DNA from: Mya arenaria
Lineage: Eukaryota > Mollusca > Bivalvia > Myida > Myidae
Reading direction: 5' to 3'
DNA length: 64,000 nt
Assembly (NCBI RefSeq): GCF_026914265.1
Contig: NC_069130.1
Span: 41,780,429 to 41,844,428, forward strand
The notes beneath the pieces are model-generated. The model was not told where the DNA came from, ran no database searches, and was given only the letters and a program-made list of their open reading frames with translations. The position numbers and the translations under genes were made by a program. This document shows positions 19,854 through 64,000 of the stretch, one piece after another; positions within the stretch are counted from its first letter, which is position 1; every line of letters starts with the position of its first letter.

Positions 19854-19890
<37 letters not shown>
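19854..19890 (+). repeat. Poly-G tract, 37 G
   Basis: Uninterrupted G run, very unlike its AT-rich surroundings. It could form G-quadruplexes, and it is also a typical place for assembly error. Confidence 0.95.
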
Positions 19891-20304: not shown

Positions 20305-21196
20305 TCCTAAACCACCCCCACCAGAGATGGGGGCGGTATATGCTGGTTTGCACTGAGGACTATGCCTCAGTGCGTTTGCCTGAATTTTTTTTCTTTTTTC
20401 TTTTTCTTTTTTTCCTTTCTCCTTTCAGTGAATTCTTTTTTTCTTGTTTATAATACAACAGCGATATTCAATAAAAAAATAAAAAATAAAATAAGATAAA
20501 GAAAAGTGTGTTATACATGTATATATATAAGTGTCCAACTGTTGTTGTTATTCTTCTTCTTCTTTTATTTTTTTTTATTTTTTTGGACTAGTATCGCTGT
20601 GTAACCAGGCAAACCAGGATGGAGAATATAACAATTCCCAGCTTAAGACTCCATCCTATGGTGTTACAATATGTGAAAGCGTTGCCAAGGATTGATTAAA
20701 TTATGAAATAAAATATAGATTGGTTGATCCTCCAGGGTGTATTTAAAATATCGCTATTAATATTAGATCCGTTTCCGGATGGTAGTTTAGTACTGGCATA
20801 AACAAAGACTTTACTAACTATAAGAAAGAAAACGATCCTTTTCAGGGCCACTGTTAAAATATTATATAATAATTTAAAATGTTATATACATTATTTACAT
20901 AAAAAGGATTCTCATCCCGGAGGAACGGTAAATTTATAATATACAACGGCTGGTGAATTATTAAAACAACATATAGACAAACTCCCCGAAGCCCTTCTTC
21001 CCATAAATGTATGGGGTTTAATGCTTGAAAAATAAAAAAAAGAATTAAATGTGAATGCCTGTGCTATTCTACAGGGGTGGATCCGTTCAGTATTACTATT
21101 TTTCGCACCCCGGGATAGAGAAAAGAATGAGTTCGCCGGGTGCCATGATTTAGGCTACTTGAATACTCTCCATTGAAGGAGATACCATGTGGGAGG

Positions 21197-27988: not shown

Positions 27989-28480
27989 TGCCCCCGAAGG
28001 TGGGCATATTAAAATCGCACCGTCCGTCCGTCCGTCCGTCCAGCTCTGTAACTTTCCCTTGTATGGACAGATTTTAAAATAACTTGCCACATGTGTTCCA
28101 CATACCAAGACGACGTGTGGCGTGCAAGACTCGTGTCCCTACCTCAAAGGTCAAGATCACACTTAGTGTTTATTCACAATGGAGTGCTGCATATAAGGAC
28201 ATAGAGTATAGGTTGTCGTGTCAGGGCTGTTACTTTCCCTTGTATGGACAGATTTTAAAATCACTTGCTACATGTGTTCCACATACGAAGACGTGTCGTG
28301 TGCAAGACCCATGTCCCTACCTCTAAGGTGAAAGATACACTAAGTGTTTATTCACAAGGGAATTCTGAATATAAGGACATAACAGTGTAGGTTGTCAAGT
28401 ATGGGTGGTATTTTTTTATGTTCAGAGGCAATTTAAAATAACTTGCCATATGTATTTGACACGTAAAGGCAAGATCAACA
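27989..28480. mobile_element. Helitron-like 'pearl'-type repeat in a PUS3 intron
   Basis: Starts after an A with TGCCCCCGAAGGTGGGCA (short hairpin), then a (CCGT)n run, then two diverged copies of a core of about 185 bp (each with CCCTTGTATGGACAGATTTTAA and CATGTGTTCCACATAC). The right end is not certain. It occupies the intron where a PUS3 exon is expected. Confidence 0.6.
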
Positions 28481-30480: not shown

Positions 30481-31360
30481 AATGCTTAAAATATTTTTTG
30501 GGTAGCAAACTCCAAAGGAAACTAAGAAGATGCACTTCTACTCCCAAATAAGATGTACCATACTTAATTCAATTGTTTTAATTTACCAAAAAGGAAGTAT
30601 ATACATGATTGTATACAACACCATGTTTCTTATGAAGGATAGCATGTTTAATTTGAAAGAAAGGTGCAGAAAACACTGTATATCTACCTTATGAAATGAT
30701 AGTTGATCATTGTAAATCTATTGGACTCACCAGTCATTTAATATTTGTGTGTTTTCATCTTTTAAATACACAGTTACAATCTTGTTACCGGTAATATATT
30801 TTCCACAAATGCATTATATAGTAAGCAGCAAGGTTTATTACTCAAAATTTGTTTGTTATATGTTTATGTATTGAATTTAAATACGAGTGTGACTTTAAAA
30901 AATGTTTGATTTTCATGAAATATTGATTTGGAGAAAAACATCATCTGAAGACTTAAAATTTCCTGATTTTATGATTTTTTTAATTCAACACAGCTCATGG
31001 AAGAAGCCGGCAAAAAATTGATTGGCGAATATGACTTCCGCAACTTCAGCAAGTTCAATGTTAAAAATGGCATTACAAACTATGTTCGAAAAATCATGGA
31101 GGTTGAAGTCAAGACTCTAGATGAGACCGATGACGGATTCACAATGTACGAACTCACGATCGTCGGGAGGGCATTCCTGTGGCATCAGATTCGCAGCATC
31201 TTCTCTGTGCTGTTCCTTGTTGGCAAAGGGAAAGAATCGGTTGAAGTATGTATTTGGTTTTGTCTAGTTATCTCCCTTGCATTGTGTTTAGTTAATAGAA
31301 AACATCTTAAAATTTGCTAATTGATGCAAGCACACAAAGTAAGGTCAATACAAGTAATTA

Positions 31361-32275
31361 TGTCACCCCCTTTCATGGGGAGACATATTGTTTTGGCCCT
31401 GTCCGTCGATCAGTCCGTCAGTCAGTCTGAACGTCACACTTCGTTTCTGCTCAATAATGATGGAACGCTTAGACCCAGGAATTTGGTATGCTAGTAGTTG
31501 GTCATGACTAGTATTGATTTTTGGTTCACTAGGTCAAAGGTCAAGGTCACCATGACCTTGAGGTGAAGAATTGGTTTCCGCTCAAATACTTAAGACCCTT
31601 TGGGTCCAGGAACTTCATACTTGGAATGCTAGTTGTTCATGACTAGAAGATGACCCCTATTAATTTTGAGATCAAAAGGTCAAAGGTCAAGGTTACCTTC
31701 AGGTAAAAAACAAAATGTTGGCAATGACCTTAAGTTAAAAATGGTTTCTGCTCAATAACTTTAGAACGCTTTTTCCCAGAAACTTAATACTTGGTATACT
31801 AGTTAGTCATGACTAGTATGTGACTCCTATTGATTTTGAGATTAGTAGGTCAAAGGTCAAGGTTGCCGTGACCTTGAGGTGAAGTAACATTTACCGCTTA
31901 GTAACAGAAGAACACTTGCACCCAAGAACTTAATACTTGGTATGCAAGTTGGTCATGTAGATGATCCCTAATGATTTTGTAATCAGTAGGTCAAAGGTCA
32001 AGGTCACAATAACCTTGAGCTGAAAATGGTTTCCGATCAATAATTGAATAACACTTGCGCCAAGAAACTTAATACAATGCAAACTTTGTTGACATTTTCC
32101 AAGATTAATCAACAACACTTTTTTCTCTTCACTATTCAATACAGGTGAATAAGCCAAACTTCACTGTTAGTTCGTCTCCAGTCCAAAATTACTTATTTCA
32201 CGTCCATCATTCATTTTTTCTCAGCTACGACCACACAATAGGGGAGACAAGGACTTTCAAAAGAGCAATCTCTAG
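31361..32275 (+). mobile_element. Helitron-like tandem-core element in a PUS3 intron
   Basis: Begins after an A with TGTCACCCCCTTTCATGGGG, then a (GTCC/GTCA)n stretch, four or five diverged cores of about 145-170 bp, and ends CTAG followed by T. A-to-T target and CTAG end are Helitron traits; the tandem core with a tetranucleotide run is the pattern of bivalve pearl elements. Four perfect AGGTCA-A-AGGTCA sites lie inside (31531, 31677, 31847 and 31988). Confidence 0.6.
31531..31558. promoter_or_regulatory. DR1 plus ERE-like nuclear-receptor motifs
   Basis: AGGTCAAAGGTCA (31531-31543) is a perfect DR1, directly followed by AGGTCA-CCA-TGACCT (31544-31558), a perfect IR3 estrogen-response-type palindrome. 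The motifs are seen in sequence; receptor binding is inferred. Confidence 0.5.
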
Positions 32276-33587
32276 TTTTAATAATTGCAATTCAATACTA
32301 GTAATTCTCCTCTAATGTTCATAGTTTATGCTTTTTTAAATGAAGGGAGAAATGTAATTTTACAAATCAATGGATGCAACAAGTTTGCCATATAGCAATT
32401 ACCATCGCAAAGTTTAGGTGTATTAAACCGTTTTTGCTTTAAATAATGGAATTCTCACAAAATGTTTTATACTTGTTGCAATTGAGACACTAATTTTTGC
32501 TTCAAAATAATTTCGGATTTTTGATGTAAATTTTTATCAAACAAAGAAAAAACTAAAATCGAAACCGAAAAATAAATTAGAAATATTGGTATTTTTTTTT
32601 ATAAATGATGTTCAGATTAATAGTGATTATATGTTATCAGATTTATACAATAGCAATCCATGTACTAATTTTTCAGGTGGTTGATGAACTTCTGAACATT
32701 GAGAAAAATCCGCGTAAGCCGCAATATAACATGTCATCTGACGCGCCTTTGTGCTTGTATGACGCTGACTTTGGAGGAGAATTTGAGTGGATTTACGAAG
32801 CTGGTAAGTTAATATAACACAGATCTTATTTCACCTTATTAGTAACTTATACGGTTTATAGAATGTTTTGCAGGATACAGGATTCTCATTTTGACATTTT
32901 TTGCATGCCCACATTTAAATGAAAAAAGGTTAAGGTATTGTCATGGTCTGGGTGTCGTTGTTGGCATTCTCAGAGTATGATAACTTTTGACTTGGCAATA
33001 ACCAAAAATACTGTTCAAGATATCATTCAAAGGAAACTTGGTACACATGTTGCCAGAGTCAAAGCACTTGTGAGTTACACTTAAACAAGGCCCATAACTC
33101 TGGCTTGAGGAGTACAATCGTTTTTTGACATACTTTAATTGCAGTTTTGTTCTTGTACAATAACATCGTAATTCTTAACTGTGATTATGTTATGTGTATG
33201 TTTGGTTATTTGGTGTTTTTGCTTTTGGCGATATTTATTACCGATAACAACTAAACACTTTCGGATGTATATATGAACCCAAAGAAGAAAATTGGCGGTA
33301 ATTAACCAAATGCAAATAACGAGAGGAAGAAACAGCGGGCTGTTTGAATCAATGATTGATTATGAAGAAATATAATTAATTGTCAACGATTTCAGACCAA
33401 ACCAATCAATGATTGATCGATCATCAGAACATCACTATTTATGAGTCAAGCATTCTTATTACTATAAGAAAATTAAAAAGTCTTTGAGTCCCAAAGCAGA
33501 GGTGAAAGTCCAATAAAGGATTTTAGTCAAAATGCATAAAATCTTATATCTGTATATAAAAGTCGAGAATGGAGACAAATGATTTTT

Positions 33588-35702
33588 AGCTCTACTGGCC
33601 TAAGGCCAGAAGAGCTTATGCGATGGTAATGTGTACGTAGTATGTGAGTCCGTCTGTCCGTGCGTCTGTAGACAATTTCTTGTTAACGCGATACAGTCTT
33701 CAGTTTTGATTGTATCTGGATGAAAGTTGTACAGTATTTAGATATCAATAAGAGCTCGGTTCCTTACCAGCCATATCCTGCCCATGCATGCCTAGATTAT
33801 GGGCCTTGAAAGTTTTAAAGAAATTCTCCTTTTTAGTTAACCTATTTTAAGCCAGGTCTGCATGAGTGAATTCTATTTTTAGCCAAGTTTACAAGTTCTG
33901 TACTGGTTCACAGGTTTGGTATACTTAAATTTGGAATGTTTGAAAATCTTTTTGTCTGAACCAGCTTTGCAAACCCTTGCTATTTTGATTATGGCATCAC
34001 AAGGCTCAAAATATGCCCCTGGGGCCAAAGCTGGCCCCACCCCTTTTGACCTTCTTTTTTATTCTTAAAGCTTCAGCAATGATATTTAGACCATGTCTAC
34101 AGTTTTGCAAATTAGCATCAATGTTGTCCTCTGATGCCCTTGACTTTGACCTTTTGACCAACATTTTTATGTCTCCCCCTCTCTGGGGGAGACATATTGT
34201 TTTTGCCCTGTCCGTCAGTCCGGTAGTCCGTCAGTCCGTCCGTACGTCACACTTCGTTTCCGATCGATAACTGGAAAACCGCATGACCTAGGATCACCAA
34301 ACTTGGTAGGGAGGTTGGTCGTGAGGTGTAGAGGATCCCTATTGTTTTTGGGGTCACTAGGTCAAAGGTCAAGGTCGCGGCGACCCCCAATATAAAAAAC
34401 ATTTCTGCTCAAAATCTTGAGAACGGTTTGACCTAGGTTCACCAAACTTGGTAGGGAGGTTGGTCATGAGGTGTAGAAGATCCCTATTGTTTTTGGGGTC
34501 ACTAGGTCAAAGGTCAAGGTCGCGGCGACCCCCAATGTAAAAAACATTTCCGCTCAATATCTTGAGAATGGTTTGACCTAGGTTCACCAAACTTGGTAGG
34601 GAGGTTGATCATGAGGTTTAGAAAACTCCTATATTTTGGGGGGTCACAAGGTCAAAGGTCAACGTCGCTGTGACCTCTAATGTAAAAAAATATTTCCGTG
34701 CAATATCAGGAGAATGCTTTGATCTAGGTTCACCAAACTTTGAAGTGAGGTTGGTCATGATGTCTAGATGATCCCAATTGTTTTGGGGGTAACAAGGTCA
34801 ATAGTCAAGGTCGTGGTGACCTTCCATGTAAAAATCATTTGCGTGTAATATCTTTCACATATGTTTACCAAAAATTGTAGAGATGTTACTCGGGTGTACA
34901 AGACCCGCATTGTTTTTGAGGTCACTATGTCAGAGGTGAAGGTCACAGACACCTGAACATAAGAAAAGGTTTCCGATCAATAAGTGGAGTTCCTATTGCC
35001 TTTGAGTCTTGAACTTTTGCATGCTGGTAGGTCTTCTTGGGCAGATGATCCGTATTGATTTTGGGGTCACTGGGTCCAAAAAGAGAGTGATGATGAAAAA
35101 CGGTTTCCAATCAATAACTTAAGTTCTGCTTTACCTGGAGTCTCCAAACTTTGCATGCTTGTAAGGGTCATGCAGTAGTTGGGGTCACTGGGTCAAAGGT
35201 CAAGTCCACAAGGGCTTGAAGATGAAAACCGTTTCCGATCAATAACTGGCGTCTCATTTCAACTTTCGTGCATTTTGTTTATTTTGTTTTTTGTCCATAA
35301 AAGACCTGCCGTTTTTTTCCCTGAGAAACAGCAGCACTTGAAGGCCTTTGCATTTTTATGGTAAGTGTCTGTTTACTAAGCCTTCGGGGGAGACATGCGC
35401 TTTTCTCAAAAGCCCATTCTAGTTTAATTTTAGAACTACAGAAATTTTTACCATGAGTACAGTTTTGAAAGCATTTTTTTGTCAGATGAACTTTACTTGG
35501 CACATATTAAAATAGTTCATGCGACTAATCTGCTTACAATACTTTCTGGGCTCAGATGTTGAACGTGCAACGTTTTCAGGTAACCCAAACACGAAACTTG
35601 AACTATAATTATGTCTGTTGCCTTTTACCCATACATACATGCTCTGAATAAAAATGACCACAAAGCCATGCCAGTAGAGCATAGGCCCTTATGGGCCTCT
35701 TG
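33588..35702. mobile_element. Composite repeat with hairpin ends, host to a nested element
   Basis: The left end AGCTCTACTGGCCT-AAGGCCAGAAGAGCT is a near-perfect palindrome. The right end (GCCAGTAGAGCATAGGCCC then TTATGGGCCTCTTG) carries the inverted GCTCTACTGGC. The interior is interrupted at 34170-35422 by a Helitron-like element. No coding sequence was seen. Family name uncertain. Confidence 0.6.
34170..35422 (+). mobile_element. Helitron-like tandem-core element nested in another repeat
   Basis: Starts after A with TGTCTCCCCC and a short hairpin, has a (GTCC)n stretch and about seven diverged cores of about 145 bp. It ends with hairpin GCTTTT-CTC-AAAAGC, ten bases, then CTAG before T. 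DR1-type motifs lie at 34359, 34504, 34649 and (GGGTCA form) 35190. The A/T flanks, 3' hairpin and CTAG fit Helitrons; the 5' TG instead of TC does not. Confidence 0.65.
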
Positions 35703-41660: not shown

Positions 41661-41848
41661 TCAAAGGGTACATCAGAATGTAGATATTTTGTGTTGTGGA
41701 CGTGTAGCTAATTTTGAATGTTAAATGTTGCCGAGGTAGTCTTTATCATTCCAAATATACATTTTCAGATCACGTTGTATTTAAATTGTAATGTATACAC
41801 TCATTAAGGTACTCACCATGGCATGGTCTCGCAGTATTCATGTTCAGG

Positions 41849-44741
41849 TAAGCCATCCATCATCAGGATGCAAAGATGTGTTAGTGCATTAAGGTAAGCC
41901 ATTAATCATTAGGATGCAAAGATGTGTTAGTGCATTAAGGTATGCCATCCATCATAAGGATGCAAAGATGTGTTAGTGCATTACGGTAAGCCATCCATCA
42001 TAAAGATGCAAAGATGTGTTAGTGCATTAAAGTACGCCATCCATCATAAGGATGCAAAGATGTGTTAGTGCATTACGGTATGCCATCCATCTTAAGGATG
42101 CAAAAAAGAGAAAGTGCATTAAGGTAAGCCATCCATCATAAGGATGCAAAGATGTGTAAGTGCATTAAGTTAAGCCATCCATCATAAGGATGCAAAGATG
42201 TGTTAGTGCATTACGGTACACCATCCATCATAAGGATGCAAAGATGTGTTAGTGCATTACGGTATGCCATCCATCATAAGGATGCAAAGATGTGTTAGTG
42301 CATTACGGTACACCATCCATCATAAGGATGCAAAGATGTGTGAGTGCATTAAGGTAAGCCATCCATCATAAGGATGCAAAGATGTGTGAGTGCATTACGG
42401 TACACCATCCATCATAAGAATGCAAAGATGTGTGAGTGCATTACGGTACACCATCCATTATAAGGATGCAAAGATGTGTGAGTGCATTAAGGTAAGCCAT
42501 CCATCATAAGGATGCAAAGATGTGTTAGTGCATTACGGTATGCCATCCATCATAAGGATGCAAAGATGTGTGAGTGCATTACGGTATGCCATCCATCATA
42601 AGGATGCAAAGATGTGTTAGTGCATTACGGTAAGCCATCCATCAGAAGGATGCAAAGATGTGTAAGTGCATTACGGTACACCATCCATCATAAGGATGCA
42701 AAGATGTGTGAGTGCATTAAGGTAAGCCATCCATCATAAGGATGCAAAGATGTGTAAGTGCATTACGGTACACCATCCATCATAAGGATGCAAAGATGTG
42801 TAAGTGCATTAAGGTAAGCCATCCATCATAAGGATGCAAAGATGTGTAAGTGCATTAGGATACGCTATCCACCATAAGGATGCAAAGATGTGTAAGTGCA
42901 TTACGGTACACCATCCATCATAAGGATGCAAAGATGTGTAAGCGAATTAAGGTAAGCCATCCATCATAAGGATGCAAAGATGTGTTAGTGCATTACGGTA
43001 CACCATCCATCATAAGGAAGCAAAGATTTGTAAATGCATTAAGGTAAGCCATCCATCATAAGGATGCAAAGATGTGTGAGCGAATTAAGGTAAGCCATCC
43101 ATCATAAGGATGCAAAGATATGTTAGTGCATTACGGTACACCATCCATCATAAGGAAGCAAAGATGTGTAAGTGCATTAAGGTAAGCCATCCATCATAAG
43201 GATGCAAAGATGTGTTAGTGCATTACGGTATGCCATCCATCATAAGGATGCAAAGATGTGTTAGTGCATTACGGTATGCCATCCATCATAAAGATGCAAA
43301 GATGTGTGAGTGCATTACGGTATGCCATCCATCATAAGGATGCAAAGATGTGTTAGTGCATTACGGTAAGCCATCCATCAGAAGGATGCAAAGATGTGTA
43401 AGTGCATTACGGTACACCATCCATCATAAGGATGCAAAGATGTGTGAGTGCATTAAGGTAAGCCATCCATCATAAGGATGCAAAGATGTGTAAGTGCATT
43501 ACGGTACACCATCCATCATAAGGATGCAAAGATGTTTAAGTGCATTAAGGTAAGCCATCCATCATAAGGATGCAAAGATGTGTAAGTGCATTAGGATACG
43601 CTATCCACCATAAGGATGCAAAGATGTGTAAGTGCATTACGGTACACCATCCATCATAAGGATGCAAAGATGTGTAAGCGAATTAAGGTAAGCCATCCAT
43701 CATAAGGATGCAAAGATGTGTTAGTGCATTACGGTACACCATCCATCATAAGGAAGCAAAGATGTGTAAATGCATTAAGGTAAGCCATCCATCATAAGGA
43801 TGCAAAGATGTGTGAGCGAATTAAGGTAAGCCATCCATCATAAGGATGCAAAGATATGTTAGTGCATTACGGTACACCATCCATCATAAGGAAGCAAAGA
43901 TGTGTAAGTGCATTAAGGTAAGCCATCCATCATAAGGATGCAAAGATGTGTTAGTGCATTACGGTATGCCATCCATCATAAGGATGCAAAGATGTGTTAG
44001 TGCATTACGGTATGCCATCCATCATAAAGATGCAAAGATGTGTTAGTGCATTACGGTACACCATCCATCATAAGGATGCAAAGATGTGTAAGTGCATTAC
44101 GGTACACCATCCATCATAAGGATGCAAAGATGTGTAAGTGCATTAAGGTAAGCCATCCATCATAAGGATGCAAAGATGTGTAAGTGCATTACGGTACACC
44201 ATCCATCATAAGGATGCAAAGATGTGTTAGTGCATTACGGTATGCCATCCATCATAAGGATGGAAAGATGTGTTAGTGCATTACGGTATGCCATCCATCA
44301 TAAGGATGCAAAGATGTGTTAGTGCATTACGGTACACCATCCATCATAAGGATGCAAAGATGTGTAAGTGCATTACGGTACACCATCCATCATAAGGATG
44401 CAAAGATGTGTAAGTGCATTAAGGTAAGCCATCCATCATAAGGATGCAAAGATGTGTAAGTGCATTACGGTACACCATCCATCATAAGGATGCAAAGATG
44501 TGTTAGTGCATTACGGTATGCCATCCATCATAAGGATGCAAAGATGTGTTAGTGCATTACGGTATGCCATCCATCATAAGGATGCAAAGATGTGTTAGTG
44601 CATTACGGTATGCCATCCATCTTAAGGATGCAAAGATGTGTTAGTGCATTAAGGTAAGTCATCCATCTTAAGGATGCAAAAAAGAGAAAGTGCATTAAGG
44701 TAAGCCATCCATCATAAGGATGCAAAGATGTGTAAGTGCAT
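41849..44741. repeat. 46-bp minisatellite, about 63 copies, with 736-bp higher-order repeat
   Basis: The monomer runs GGTAAGCCATCCATCATAAGGA then TGCAAAGATGTGTTAGTGCATTAC, with three main variants (GGTAAGCC, GGTACACC, GGTATGCC). Rare variants recur exactly 736 bp (16 monomers) apart, for example GGATACGC at 42858 and 43594, and GGAAGCAAAG at about 43015 and 43751. The variant with AAAAAAGAGAAAG at 42100 returns near the right end (56 monomers later). Each monomer has a CATCC/GGATG hairpin. Confidence 0.95.
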
Positions 44742-44860
44742 TTTAGATATTGACAACGAGATTATTTCTATGTTTAATCTATATTCCTGAACCATCATTT
44801 TATTTTATGGATTTCATTTTTGAATAACACCATAATGATGCTACTATTATAATATGATTA

Positions 44861-46239: not shown

Positions 46240-48175
46240 CTATATTTCGGGAACATGTACATTGTATATCACTGGTTGGTTATTAAGAAACAGAATCTAT
46301 AACTCTAGAACATGTACAGTGTATATCACTGGTTGATGATTAAGAAACAGATTCTATAACTCTAGAACATGTACATTGTATATCACTGGTTGGTGATCAA
46401 GAAACAGATTCTATAACTCTAGAACATGTACATTGTATATCACTGGTTGGTGACTAAGAAACAGATTCTATAACTCTAGAACATGTACAGTGTATATCAC
46501 TGGTTGGTGATTAAGAAACAGATTCTAAAACTCTAGAACATGTACATTGTATATCAATAGTTGATCATTAAGAAGCAGATTCTATAACTCTAGAACATGT
46601 ACAGTGTATATCACTGGTTGGTGATTAAGAAACAGATTCTATAACTCTAGAACATGTACATTGTATATCAATAGTTGATCATTAAGAAGCAGATTCTATA
46701 ACTCTAGAACATGTACAGTGTATATCACTGGTTGGTGATTAAGAAGCAGATTCTATAACTCTAGAACATGTACATCGTATATCACTGGTTGGTGATTAAG
46801 AAGCAGATTCTATAATTCTAGAACATGTACATTGCACATCAATAGTTGATCATTAAGAAGCAGATTCTATAACTCTAGAATATGTACATCGTATATCAAT
46901 AGTTGATGATTAAGAAGCAGATTCTATAACTATAGAACATGTACATTGTATATCACTGGTTGATGATTAAGAAGCAGATTCTATAACTCTAGGACATGTA
47001 CATTGTTTACCACTGGTTGGTGATTAAGAAGCAGATTCTATAACTCTAGGACATGTACATTGTTTATCACTGGTTGGTGATTAAGAAGCAGATTCTATAA
47101 CTCTAGGACATGTACATCGTATATCACTGGTTGATGATTAAGAAGCAGATTCTATAACTCTAGGACATGTACATTGTTTTTCACTGGTTGGTGATTAAGA
47201 AGCAGATTCTATAACTCTAGATCATGTACATTGTTTATCACTGGTTGGTGATTAAGAAGCAGATTCTATAACTCTAGGACATGTACATTGTATACCAGTG
47301 GTTGATGATTAAGAAGCAGATTCTATAACTTTAGGACATGTACATTGTTTATCACTGGTTGGTGATTAAGAAGCAGATTCTATAACTCTAGAACATGTAC
47401 ATTGTATATCACTGGTTGATGATTAAGAAGCAGATTCTATAACTCTAGATCATGTACATTGTATATCACTGGTTGATGATTAAGAAGCAGATTCTATAAC
47501 TCTAGAACATGTGCATTGTTTATCACTGGTTGGTGATTAAGAAGCAGATTCTATAACTCTAGGACATGTACATTGTTTATCACTGGTTGGTGATTAAGAA
47601 ACAGATTCTATAACTCTAGGACATGTACATCGTATATCACTGGTTGATGATTAAAAAGCAGATTCTATAACTCTAGGACATGTACATTGTTTATCACTGG
47701 TTGGTGATTAAGATGCAGATTCTATAACTCTAGATCATGTACATTGTTTATCACTGGTTGGTGATTAAGAAGCAGATTCTATAACTCTAGGACATGTACA
47801 TCGTATATCACTGGTTGATGATTAAGAAGCAGATTCTATAACTCTAGGATATGTACATTGTTTATCACTGGTCGGTGATTAAGAAGCAGATTCTATAACT
47901 CTAGAACATGTACATTGTATATCACTGGTTGGTGATTAAGAAGCAGATTCTATAACTCTAGAACATGTACATTGTATATCACTGCTTGATCATTAAGAAG
48001 CAGATTCTATAACTCTAGAACATGTACAGTGTATATCGCTGCTTGATCATTAAGAAGCAGATTCTATAATTCTAGAACATGTACAGTGTATATCACTGGT
48101 TGGTGATTAAGAAACAGAATCTATAACTCTAGAACATGTACAGTGTATATCAATTGTTGATCACTAAAAACAGAA
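46240..48175. repeat. 57-bp minisatellite, about 34 copies
   Basis: Unit GATTAAGAAGCAGATTCTAT then AACTCTAGAACATGTACATTG then TATATCACTGGTTGGT. It contains palindromes TCTAGA and ACATGT. Variants (GGTTGGT, GGTTGAT, AGTTGAT; TATATC or TTTATC) alternate. Copies at both edges are the most diverged. Confidence 0.95.
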
Positions 48176-48194
48176 TGTATAATTCTGGAACATG

Positions 48195-48636
48195 CACATT
48201 GAAAGGGGTACATTGGAGTCACCCTGTGGTAGGTTGGCCGGTGGGTCGGTCGGTCGCTGGGTCGGTCCGATGCAAACTTATTGATGGAATTCAATTAAAC
48301 TTCATACAATGATAGAACATACTGAAAGGAAGTGCAGTGTGCAAGAACCATAACTCTATTTTAGAGCTCTATTATATTACAGAGTTATTACCCTTAGTTA
48401 CTTATTCTTGCGTTTTAACTGTTGCCATTGAGCAATTTTACTAAGATTTATGAACGAACACCGAAAGGCAATTGGCGGGTGCTCATTTGAACAGATACCT
48501 GTCAATTCAAGCCCAAAATAGCTCAATTTCCAATAGCGTTACTAAAACTTTTTGGCTAGCTAGTTTAAATTTCACCATTTGCAGTCCGGTCATGCCAAAA
48601 TATAAATAATTAACATTGACTTACAATCGAAACATA
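48195..48636. other. (GGTC)n stretch and flanking non-coding sequence
   Basis: AAGGGGTACATTGGAGTCACCCT followed by a GGTCGGTCGG run to about 48270 resembles the start of a pearl-type element, but no tandem core follows. The remainder has no feature. Confidence 0.4.
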
Positions 48637-55369: not shown

Positions 55370-56890
55370 ATCGTGGCGACGCCTCACCGATGACGACACC
55401 TCACCGATGACGACACCTCACCGATAACGCAATGGGAGATACCTCACCGATGAGGCAATGGGCGACTTCTCACCGATGACGACACTTCACCGATGACGCT
55501 ATGGGCGACACCTCACCGATGACGCTATGGGTGATACCTCACCGATGACGCAATGGGTGATACCTAACCGATGACGCAATGGGTTATACCTAACCGATGA
55601 AGCTTTGGAATGCACCTCACCGATGACGCAATGGGTGATACCTCATCGATGACGCAATGGACGACACCTCACCGATTACGCAATGGGCGACTTCTCACCG
55701 AGGAAGACACTTCACCGATGACGCTATGGGTGATACATCACCGTTGACGCTATGGGTGACACCTCACCGTTGACGCTATGGGCGACACCTCACCGTTGAC
55801 GCTATGGACGACACCTCACCGAAGCCGCAATGGGCGACTTCTCACCGAGGGAGACACCTCATCGATGACGCTATTGGTGATACATCACCGTTGAAGCTAT
55901 GTGTGACACCTCACCGTTGACGCTATGGGCGACACCTCACCGAAGACGCAATGCGCGACACCTCATCGATAACGATACCTCACCGATGAGGCTATGGGAG
56001 ACACCTCGCCGATGACGCTATGGGCGACACATCAGCGATGACGCTATGGGTGACATCTCAGCGATGACGCTATGTGTGATACCTCACCGATGACACTATG
56101 GGTGATACCTCACCGATGACGCAATGGGTGACACCTCATTAATGACGCTATTGGCGACACCTCAGCAAAACGCTATGGAGGATACATCACCGTTGACGCT
56201 ATGGGCGACACCTCACCGATGACGTAATCGGCGACACCCCATTGATGACGTTTTGGGCGACACCTCACCGATGACGATATGGGCGACGCCTCACTGATGA
56301 CGACACCTCACCGATGACGCTTTTGGCGACACCTCACCGATGACGCTATGGGCGACGCCTCACTGATGACGACACCTCACCGATGACGCTTTTGGCGACA
56401 CCTCACCGATGACACTATGGGCGACGCCTCACTGATGACGACACCTCGACGATGACGCTATGGGCGACACCTCACTGATGACGACACCTCGGCGATGACG
56501 CTATGGGCGACGCCTCACTGATGACGACACCTCGACGATGACGCTATGGGCGACACCTCAATGATGACGATACCTCGACGATGACGCTATGGGCGACGCC
56601 TCACTGATGACGACACCTCGACGATGACGCTATGGGCGACGCCTCACTGATGACGACACCTCGACGATGACGCTATGGGCGACGCCTCACTGATGACGAC
56701 ACCTCGACGATGACGCTATGGGCGACACCTCACTGAGGACGACACCTCGACGATGACGGTATGGGCGACACCTCACTGATGACGACACCTCAACGATGAC
56801 GCTATGGGCGACGCCTCACCGATGACGACACCTCGACGATGACGCTATGGGCGACGCCCTACCGATGTTGATACCTCACCGATGACGCAA
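55370..56890. repeat. GC-richer ~26-bp minisatellite with 43-bp compound units
   Basis: Basic unit GATGACGCTATGGGCGACACCTCACC. On the right (about 56280-56880) it is organised in compound units of about 43 bp alternating CGCCTCACTGATGACGAC and ACCTCGACGATGACGCTATGG. The period is not a multiple of three, and stops interrupt all frames, so it is not coding. Confidence 0.93.
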
Positions 56891-62755: not shown

Positions 62756-63100
62756 CTGTTTGCAGCTGTCAACAAAACAGATCAAGACATTAAGCATCCC
62801 ATTATTGAAAGGCTATTTTGTAAAATAATATAATGACAAAATTTTAACGGAAAACAATTTTACAATATTAGAATTTTGTAGAATGTGTAAATAAAACTAT
62901 TTCTTATCTCGTGATCACGACCAAATTACTCGTTCCCACGACTTGCATGTTGTTGCCACGACTTAATAATTTCGAGGCCACCACTTCGTTCGTTTAAGAC
63001 GTGGGAGGGTTCAGACCAGTTGACGATTTGTGTCATGGGTCTGTAACGGTCGTGACCCATTGGTACGCTACCTTGGTTTGGTCTCGCTTCTAATAAGGTC
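62756..63100. other. Non-coding flank, no exon recognised
   Basis: No further exon of the minus-strand NACHT gene could be recognised here. Confidence 0.35.
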
Positions 63101-63104
63101 AAAT

Positions 63105-64000
63105 AGGGACTCCCACCTACACTTAAGTCCGGTGATCTAATTAGGTACATGGTCAAATAGGGGACCCACCTACACCAAAGTCAGGTGATCTAATTAGGAG
63201 CAAGGTCAAATAGGGACCCACACTTACACTAAAGTCAGGTGATCTAATTAGGTGCACAGTCAAATAGGGACCCCCATCTTCACTGAAGTCCGGTGATCTA
63301 ATTAGGTGCAAGGTTAAATAGGGACCTACACTAAAATCCGGTGATCTAATTAGGTGCAAGGTTAAATAGGGACCTACACTGAAGTCCGGTGATCTAATTA
63401 GGTGCAAGGTTAAATAGGGACCTACACTAAAGTCCGGTGATCTAATAAGGTGGATCAAATAGGGCCCAAACCTTCACTAAAGTCCGGTGATCTAATTAAG
63501 TGCAAGGTAAAATATGGACCCCCACCTACACTAAAGTAAGGTGCTCTAATTAGGTGCAAGGTAATATACGGACCCCCACCTACACTAAAGTCTGGTGATT
63601 TAATAAGGTGGATCAAATAGGGCCCCGACCAACACTAAAGTTTGTTGATCTAATTAAGTGGAGGGTGAAATAGGGACCCCACCTTCACAAAAGTCCAGTG
63701 CACGGTCAAATAGGGCCCCGACCTACACTAAAGTCAGGTGATCTAATTAAGTGCACGGTCAAATAGAGACCCCGCCTACACTAAAGTCAGGTGATCTAAT
63801 TAAGTGCACGGTCAAATAGAGACCCCGCCTACACTAAAGTCAGGTGATCTAATTAAGTGCACGGTCAAATAGAGACCCCACCTTCACTAAAGTCAGGTGA
63901 TCTAATTAAGTGGATCAAATAGGGACCCCCACCTACACTTAAGTCCGGTGATCTTATTAAGTGGATCAAATAAGGACTCCCACATACACTAAAGTCTGTT
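63105..64000. repeat. 48-53 bp minisatellite cut by the window edge
   Basis: Unit CTAAAGTCAGGTGATCTAAT then TAAGTGCACGGTCAAATAGAGACCCCGCCTACA, with shorter 48-bp versions at 63290-63440. These give an incidental minus-strand repeat HLIRSPDFSVGPYLTL. About 17 copies are visible. Confidence 0.92.

Follow-up and report, generated by a model that had tools for sequence, protein, structure and literature searches.

Arrays of nuclear receptor-type half-sites in HINE-like rolling-circle elements of Mya arenaria

The window analyzed here is a stretch of 64,000 nucleotides of Mya arenaria DNA (contig NC_069130.1 of assembly GCF_026914265.1, positions 41,780,429 to 41,844,428, forward strand). It contains exons of the tRNA pseudouridine synthase gene PUS3 and two repeat elements, A and B, whose internal core repeats carry the nuclear receptor-type motif AGGTCA-A-AGGTCA (AGGTCAAAGGTCA), a direct repeat with a one-base spacer (DR1) (Table 1). 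Element A lies in a PUS3 intron, as the exon before it matches PF01416 and the exon after it, scanned to 32802, weakly continues the same profile with a score under the cut-off of 23.3. The first-pass annotation had assigned both elements to PUS3 introns, which is borne out for element A; element B lies downstream of 32803, i.e., past the second PUS3 exon recognized. A motif scan recovered the seven exact DR1s and the single GGGTCA variant (GGGTCAAAGGTCA) that had been described in the two elements, all on the plus strand, as well as a site with two mismatches at 34795. The core repeats are regularly spaced, as had been claimed, with start-to-start distances of 146, 170, and 141 bp in element A and 145, 145, 146, and 132 bp in element B, and a further AGGTC directly follows four of the seven exact DR1s (31531, 31988, 34359, and 34504), in agreement with the extension noted earlier for several of them. 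When up to two mismatches were allowed, DR1 was found 12 times in the whole window versus 1.80 expected, a number reached in none of 100 shuffles, which excludes a chance origin; nine of these matches fall inside the two elements, and the other three (28141, 45470, and 49440) have two mismatches each. Counts of RGGTCA half-sites on both strands gave 14 in element A versus 1.1 in shuffles (about 12-fold) and 22 in element B versus 1.9 (about 11-fold), totals that were reached in 0 of 200 shuffles. By the same measure, no half-site enrichment was detected in the outer HINE-like element that B interrupts (33588 to 35702, measured from 33593; total reached in 38 of 200 shuffles) or in a tandem repeat at 28046 to 28453 (67 of 200).

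The elements had been described as Helitron-like. Their rolling-circle-type appearance and core repeats support this description in part, but the ends fit a HINE (non-autonomous Helentron), as defined in the available text of PMC4067079 by subterminal inverted repeats (subTIRs), of which the 5′ one is palindromic, and associated features. As judged from sequence, elements A and B fit this class better than a canonical Helitron: subTIRs occur at both ends (TGTCTCCCC and GGGGAGACA) with a palindromic 5′ copy, a microsatellite and central tandem repeats are present, and a hairpin (GCTTTTCTCAAAAGC) lies 9 bases from the end of B, with similar hairpins in other copies. End alignment showed that the copies share the layout 5′ ATGTC(A/T)CCCCC...GGGGAGACATATTG, GTCCGTCA-type microsatellite, cores of about 145 to 170 bp, GGGGAGACA, hairpin, and 3′ CTAG. 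Among clean ends, a count that omits degraded ones (e.g., locus L016 at the 5′ side and L019, L022, and L024 at the 3′ side), T directly precedes ATGTC in 15 of 16 cases, of which L030 and L031 are not independent since they have a common 5′ flank, and for the 3′ end, the next base is T in all 12 cases. Because the 5′ flank has another T immediately upstream of this position in each of the 16 cases, the first base of the element is uncertain by one. An empty site was found in L049, where an uninterrupted relative of the outer element spans the insertion junction of B with 83.7% identity over 344 columns. The elements do not match a canonical Helitron, given that the ends start with ATGTC after a T and finish with CTAG before a T, with no TC start or A-T target; of the canonical features, the 3′ CTRR alone was present. 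The 5′-end pattern matched 932 and 935 times on the two strands of the genome and never in the control, from which we estimate roughly a thousand intact 5′ ends, as B-type ends are self-complementary and hence counted twice. B units from different loci had a mean identity of 95.4% (18 units, 7 loci), and their true divergence is larger since selection of the units required an exact match to a core string. The genome also contains 85 matches to the Helitron_like_N profile, several of them within open frames of 2,422 to 2,468 amino acids.

Table 1. Coordinates of PUS3 exons and repeat features in the window
Feature	Positions	Strand	Remarks
PUS3 exon	30994..31245	+	PF01416, E 3.3e-17; structures matched in the PDB belong to tRNA pseudouridine(38/39) synthase
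Next PUS3 exon	32677..32803	+	PF01416, E 0.0044, 17.9 bits; profile positions contiguous with previous exon
HINE element A (ATGTC...CTCTAG)	31360..32275	+	Ends from alignment with other copies; T on both flanks
5′ palindrome of A, containing the 5′ subTIR	31359..31387	+	
DR1 AGGTCAAAGGTCA, core 1 of A	31531..31543	+	AGGTCA directly after
Perfect inverted repeat with 3-base spacer (IR3) AGGTCAccaTGACCT	31544..31558	+	Consensus estrogen response element form; sole one within 31360-35422
DR1, core 2 of A	31677..31689	+	
DR1, core 3 of A	31847..31859	+	
DR1, core 4 of A	31988..32000	+	
3′ subterminal repeat GGGGAGACA of A	32241..32249	+	Followed by hairpin CTTTCAAAAG (32254-32263) and CTCTAG end
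HINE element B (ATGTC...TTCTAG)	34169..35422	+	Nested in outer element; ends aligned with other copies; empty-site relative
5′ palindrome of B, TATGTCTCCCCCTCTCTGGGGGAGACATA	34168..34196	+	Pattern also scanned genome-wide
Microsatellite (GTCCGTCA)n	34210..34249	+	Follows 5′ end of B
DR1, core 1 of B	34359..34371	+	
DR1, core 2 of B	34504..34516	+	
DR1, core 3 of B	34649..34661	+	
Degenerate DR1, core 4 of B	34795..34807	+	2 mismatches
GGGTCAAAGGTCA variant, last core of B	35190..35202	+	
3′ end of B	35386..35422	+	Subterminal repeat GGGGGAGACA, hairpin GCTTTTCTCAAAAGC (35399-35413), CTAG
Outer HINE-like element (AGCTCTACTGGCC...GGGCCTCTTG)	33588..35702	+	Another family, interrupted by B; ends read off this sequence, no many-copy alignment

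We then counted the motifs in the 1.216-Gb assembly, using each motif read backwards as a control. DR1 with an A spacer occurs 10,632 times (control, 70), DR1 with other spacers 498 times (99), and DR1 extended by AGGTC 5,473 times (0). Together with the locus sample below, these counts bear out the proposal that DR1s are scattered through the genome in clusters. The two-base-spaced repeat DR2 (15,717 versus 116 in the control) and the IR3 estrogen-response palindrome AGGTCAnnnTGACCT (20,681 versus 35) are more abundant, and IR1 is rarer (445 versus 51). Two other core words were tried, ATGACCCCTATTG, which is not part of DR1 (10,983 versus 74), and GTTTCCGCTCAAT (1,902 versus 9); DR1 is about as frequent as the former and more than five times as frequent as the latter. 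We therefore rejected DR1 as the single feature driving the genome-wide excess, as DR2, IR3, and a non-receptor core word are equal or commoner. DR1 leads the half-site pairs in five elements of the family but not genome-wide; on these counts, what characterizes the wider group of repeats is an array of AGGTCA half-sites. Among the first 50 IR3 sites listed, 39 lie no more than 500 bp from another such site, many at 133 to 156 bp. A scan of genome contigs with a longer pattern gave no matches, and matches in viral contigs (L009 and L057 to L059) were dismissed as chance, since these GC-rich contigs share just a short word.

The location of DR1s relative to the family was examined in 40 stretches, all on contig C1, holding 94 of the first 100 DR1 sites listed; the six sites left out are the last ones listed, in one cluster from C1:11222489 onward. 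Hidden Markov models (HMMs) of the core repeats were built with the DR1 and the palindrome left out. The family consensus, on which the first-pass proposal depended, contains AGGTCAAAGGTCA, and most sampled copies lie next to core-repeat matches (70 of 94 sites, or 28 of 42 locus-strand groups), as expected of a repeat family that carries a response element. The remaining 24 sites had no detectable core homology. This masked test is conservative, as L022 was scored outside yet visibly has parts of the element ends. All 66 IR3s in the same DR1-selected loci lie within 60 bp of matches to one core-repeat model. Some outside DR1s belong to tandem repeats or HINE-like repeats of other kinds, in which the half-site words of the family stand in a different order: L035/L038 and L039/L045 read AAGGTCAAGGTCA, some bases, then AGGTCAAAGGTCA, and L013 is a 120-bp tandem repeat whose first part is decayed. 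Half-sites in these repeats are strongly one-stranded (14 versus 1 in L035, 11 versus 0 in L039, 8 versus 0 in L013, and 7 versus 0 in L045) and their totals were reached in 0 of 200 shuffles each, an enrichment that is partly by construction because the loci were selected for DR1. Separately, L046 contains a DR1-bearing sequence twice, as similar copies in inverted orientation with two DR1s each, about 4 to 5 kb apart.

A DR1-independent sample was provided by five elements retrieved by their 5′ end alone. Each of the five contains 4 to 6 exact DR1s, and together they hold 122 RGGTCA half-sites, 85 of which are in the element-forward orientation. Neighboring half-sites at most 8 bases apart formed 53 pairs, namely DR1 (23), DR2 (14), DR0 (7), IR3 (4), DR7 (3), and IR1 (2), so that DR1 is the main arrangement within the family of A and B. 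The genome-wide IR3 and DR2 excess probably comes largely from related core families, e.g., those with a 146-bp repeat unit in L037 and L048. Separately, an intact GGTCXnnnYGACC was present in 27 of 75 non-redundant units, with A..T in 19, G..T in 4, G..C in 2, A..G in 1, and G..A in 1. CpG deamination of GGTCG...CGACC may possibly have produced the estrogen response element (ERE) form, by analogy with Alu-DR2 elements (available text of PMC1785376).

We consider it likely that A and B are HINE copies, and that rolling-circle amplification and array expansion copied their core half-sites to thousands of places. The core unit of about 145 bp is built round AGGTCA-type half-sites, mostly in one orientation: a DR1 is often preceded by a DR2 and followed by a further half-site (DR0), and some copies have an IR3 palindrome. 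In related core families of the genome, the DR2 and IR3 forms would be more common. Amplification of the elements, combined with internal expansion of their arrays, would then have spread the half-sites, with a Helentron Rep/helicase, presumably encoded by Helitron_like_N genes with frames of up to 2,468 amino acids, moving the elements. By their site preferences, receptors of the RXR, HNF4, and FTZ-F1/ERR types, along with estrogen receptor (ER)-like ones, could bind naked copies. Such binding is plausible, since the genome has 95 exon-level matches to the zf-C4 nuclear receptor DNA-binding domain and the consensus ERE is bound by the ER of a gastropod (available text of PMC3778743). Most sites would nonetheless be passengers of the amplified unit, and a minority may have been recruited.

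Several observations weigh against this interpretation. Beyond the 24 sampled DR1s lacking core homology, half-sites are mildly enriched in the remaining window (60 versus 41.6 in shuffles, a total reached in 0 of 200), so part of the excess does not come from A and B. Perfect IR3s were present in one of the five unbiased elements (L052, with four). The empty site supports an insertion of B, but the T-run flank and the L049 relative, at only 84% identity, keep the exact target dinucleotide from being read. Finally, no autonomous partner with matching ends was found; the Helitron-like loci L050 and L051 lack the terminal words in the 3.6-kb internal stretch available for each.

The arrays could also be no more than short tandem slippage of a 7-base word, AGGTCAA, that became fixed in an early core by chance before amplification, which we regard as possible, though short of probable. 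DR1 with its extension can be read as AGGTCAA-AGGTCAA-GGTCA, three copies of the 7-mer stand in a row in L044, and the word is also repeated in a 46-bp array of L049. However, slippage accounts neither for the IR3 and DR2 partners nor for the recurrence of half-sites in several cores without detectable homology.

Alternatively, the half-sites may be a maintained functional module whose binding by receptors aided spread, e.g., by opening germ-line chromatin, or wired copies into gene regulation. The commonness of DR1 in the five unbiased elements, the one-stranded arrays in repeats without core homology, and the binding of the consensus ERE by a gastropod ER are in its favor, as is the conservation of DR1. 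In 19 non-redundant units from the five elements, DR1 has an identity of 0.935 versus a mean of 0.816, which ranks third of 133 windows, and the highest exact retention among all 13-base words; in a second model of this sample (6 non-redundant units), it ranks first of 175 windows. These rotated models supersede a first column analysis that was biased to its upstream query, and a 'left' model had 9 full matches, too few for use. In a larger, mostly DR1-selected alignment, however, the windows better conserved than DR1 numbered 1 of 133 in one rotation but 50 of 175 in another ('mid'). In addition, DR1 is matched in genome-wide frequency by the non-receptor core word, and the repeats with the other word order were themselves located via DR1. 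Retention per base, measured in a 75-unit alignment that is biased towards its upstream query, was best for the spacer A (68 of 75) and worst for the GG of the second half-site (54 and 49 of 75). Receptors have base preferences of their own within such sites, and the base-by-base variation, as judged from these units, does not follow receptor preference alone. We view a maintained module as unlikely. A broader version, which we find quite doubtful, would have several HINE-like repeats without detectable core homology each keeping or acquiring oriented half-site arrays (DR0, DR1, DR2, or IR3) because host receptors bind them, creating perfect DR1, DR2, and estrogen-type elements by the tens of thousands, which would soak up or rewire receptor signaling, including that of an unliganded mollusc-type ER.

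The IR3 palindrome might instead be kept as a DNA or RNA hairpin rather than a protein site, with the half-sites as its arms, which seems very unlikely to us. The palindrome is perfect at 20,681 places, and B copies have GGTCGcggCGACC, a double change relative to GGTCAnnnTGACC. Nevertheless, a palindrome-like stretch is present in 67 of 75 non-redundant units, and in these the paired columns match in 0.6 fewer to 2.5 more units than under independence; 7 of 8 pairs exceed it, with the greatest values at 59 versus 56.5 and 46 versus 43.9. Compensated double changes number just 0 to 2 per pair, and GGTCXnnnYGACC is not intact in 48 of 75 units. With little or no covariation between the arms, hairpin selection was rejected as unsupported. 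Least probable of all, the words could be recognition sites of the Helentron's own Rep protein, as one-orientation short words in a rolling-circle element may resemble the iterons of other Rep systems, but in the sequence read they lie in the central cores, outside the terminal 5′ and 3′ segments, and the outer HINE-like element lacks enrichment.

Other repeat structures were observed alongside these elements. A recurrent arrangement in the genome has an A-type 5′ end some 690 bp downstream of a B-type 5′ end, with both in one orientation (G000 C1:4996350-4997059, 11267808-11268529, 35161324-35162038, and similar places), which suggests a chimeric element moving as one unit; in L029, both types of 5′ end and a 3′ end are all present. 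A second HINE-like family in L018, L028, L030, L040, and L047 has the 5′ end ATGCCCCCTTTTGAAAAAAGTGGGG, a GTCG microsatellite, and related cores (GGGTCAAAGGTCAAGGTCAGTGTGACCTT). Within the window, the repeat at 28046-28453 has a 178-bp unit with a degenerate ACCTCAAAGGTCA and may be an ancient core array from a different HINE family, and a 54-bp tandem repeat at 63095-63996 has one AAGGTCA word per consensus unit and is not obviously a HINE. Long arrays occupy 41847-44742 (46-bp unit, 63 copies) and 46251-48201 (57-bp unit, 34 copies), an array of 26/43-bp units (CGACACCTCACCGATGACGC...) at 55377-56888 is possibly coding, and a run of 37 G lies at 19854-19890.

Known systems, compared here through the portions of the papers available, resemble A and B in different respects. 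Cg_HINE of Crassostrea gigas (PMC7492417) likewise has arrays of 140- to 180-bp repeats between flanks with a subTIR, an inverted repeat, a microsatellite, a 3′ subTIR, and a palindrome; it inserts into oligo-T without target site duplication, forms some double arrays, and has no relatable autonomous partner. The likeness is one of described architecture, and receptor-type motifs are unmentioned in that portion. The pearl elements and BIV160/Cg170 (PMC5139131) are, again by description, bivalve elements or satellites whose internal repeats contain conserved segments, pearl being modular with short internal arrays. Caenorhabditis Helitrons (PMC6927752) are rolling-circle elements with clustered transcription factor sites and contain 61.4% (11,527 of 18,766) of the C. 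elegans heat shock elements; those are HSF-1 sites with binding and expression shown, whereas A and B carry nuclear receptor words known from sequence. Alu-DR2 retinoic acid elements (PMC1785376) similarly multiply one receptor motif (108,582 DR2s, 90% in Alu), but Alu is a short interspersed element in which the motif arose largely via CpG deamination and RAR binding was shown, whereas A and B are DNA elements in which each copy has several sites. Alu also carries HNF4alpha sites (PMC3252374), again HNF4-type sites spread by a repeat, supported there by protein-binding arrays, chromatin immunoprecipitation (ChIP), and reporter assays. The combination of a HINE with nuclear receptor half-sites was not found in the literature searched, which excluded most subscription papers, nor was the string AGGTCAAAGGTCAAGGTCA; a term search of PMC8268682 and PMC11136912 returned no mention of GGTCA, TGACC, or nuclear receptor. 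Rolling-circle spread of factor sites, repeats spreading receptor sites, and the oyster HINE architecture are thus known, and what appears to be new is a HINE spreading nuclear receptor half-sites. Motif scans or ChIP of RXR, HNF4, ER, and ERR in such animals must account for repeat-borne motifs, and a mollusc genome with 20,681 perfect consensus palindromes offers a clear test case for rolling-circle spread of receptor-type sites.

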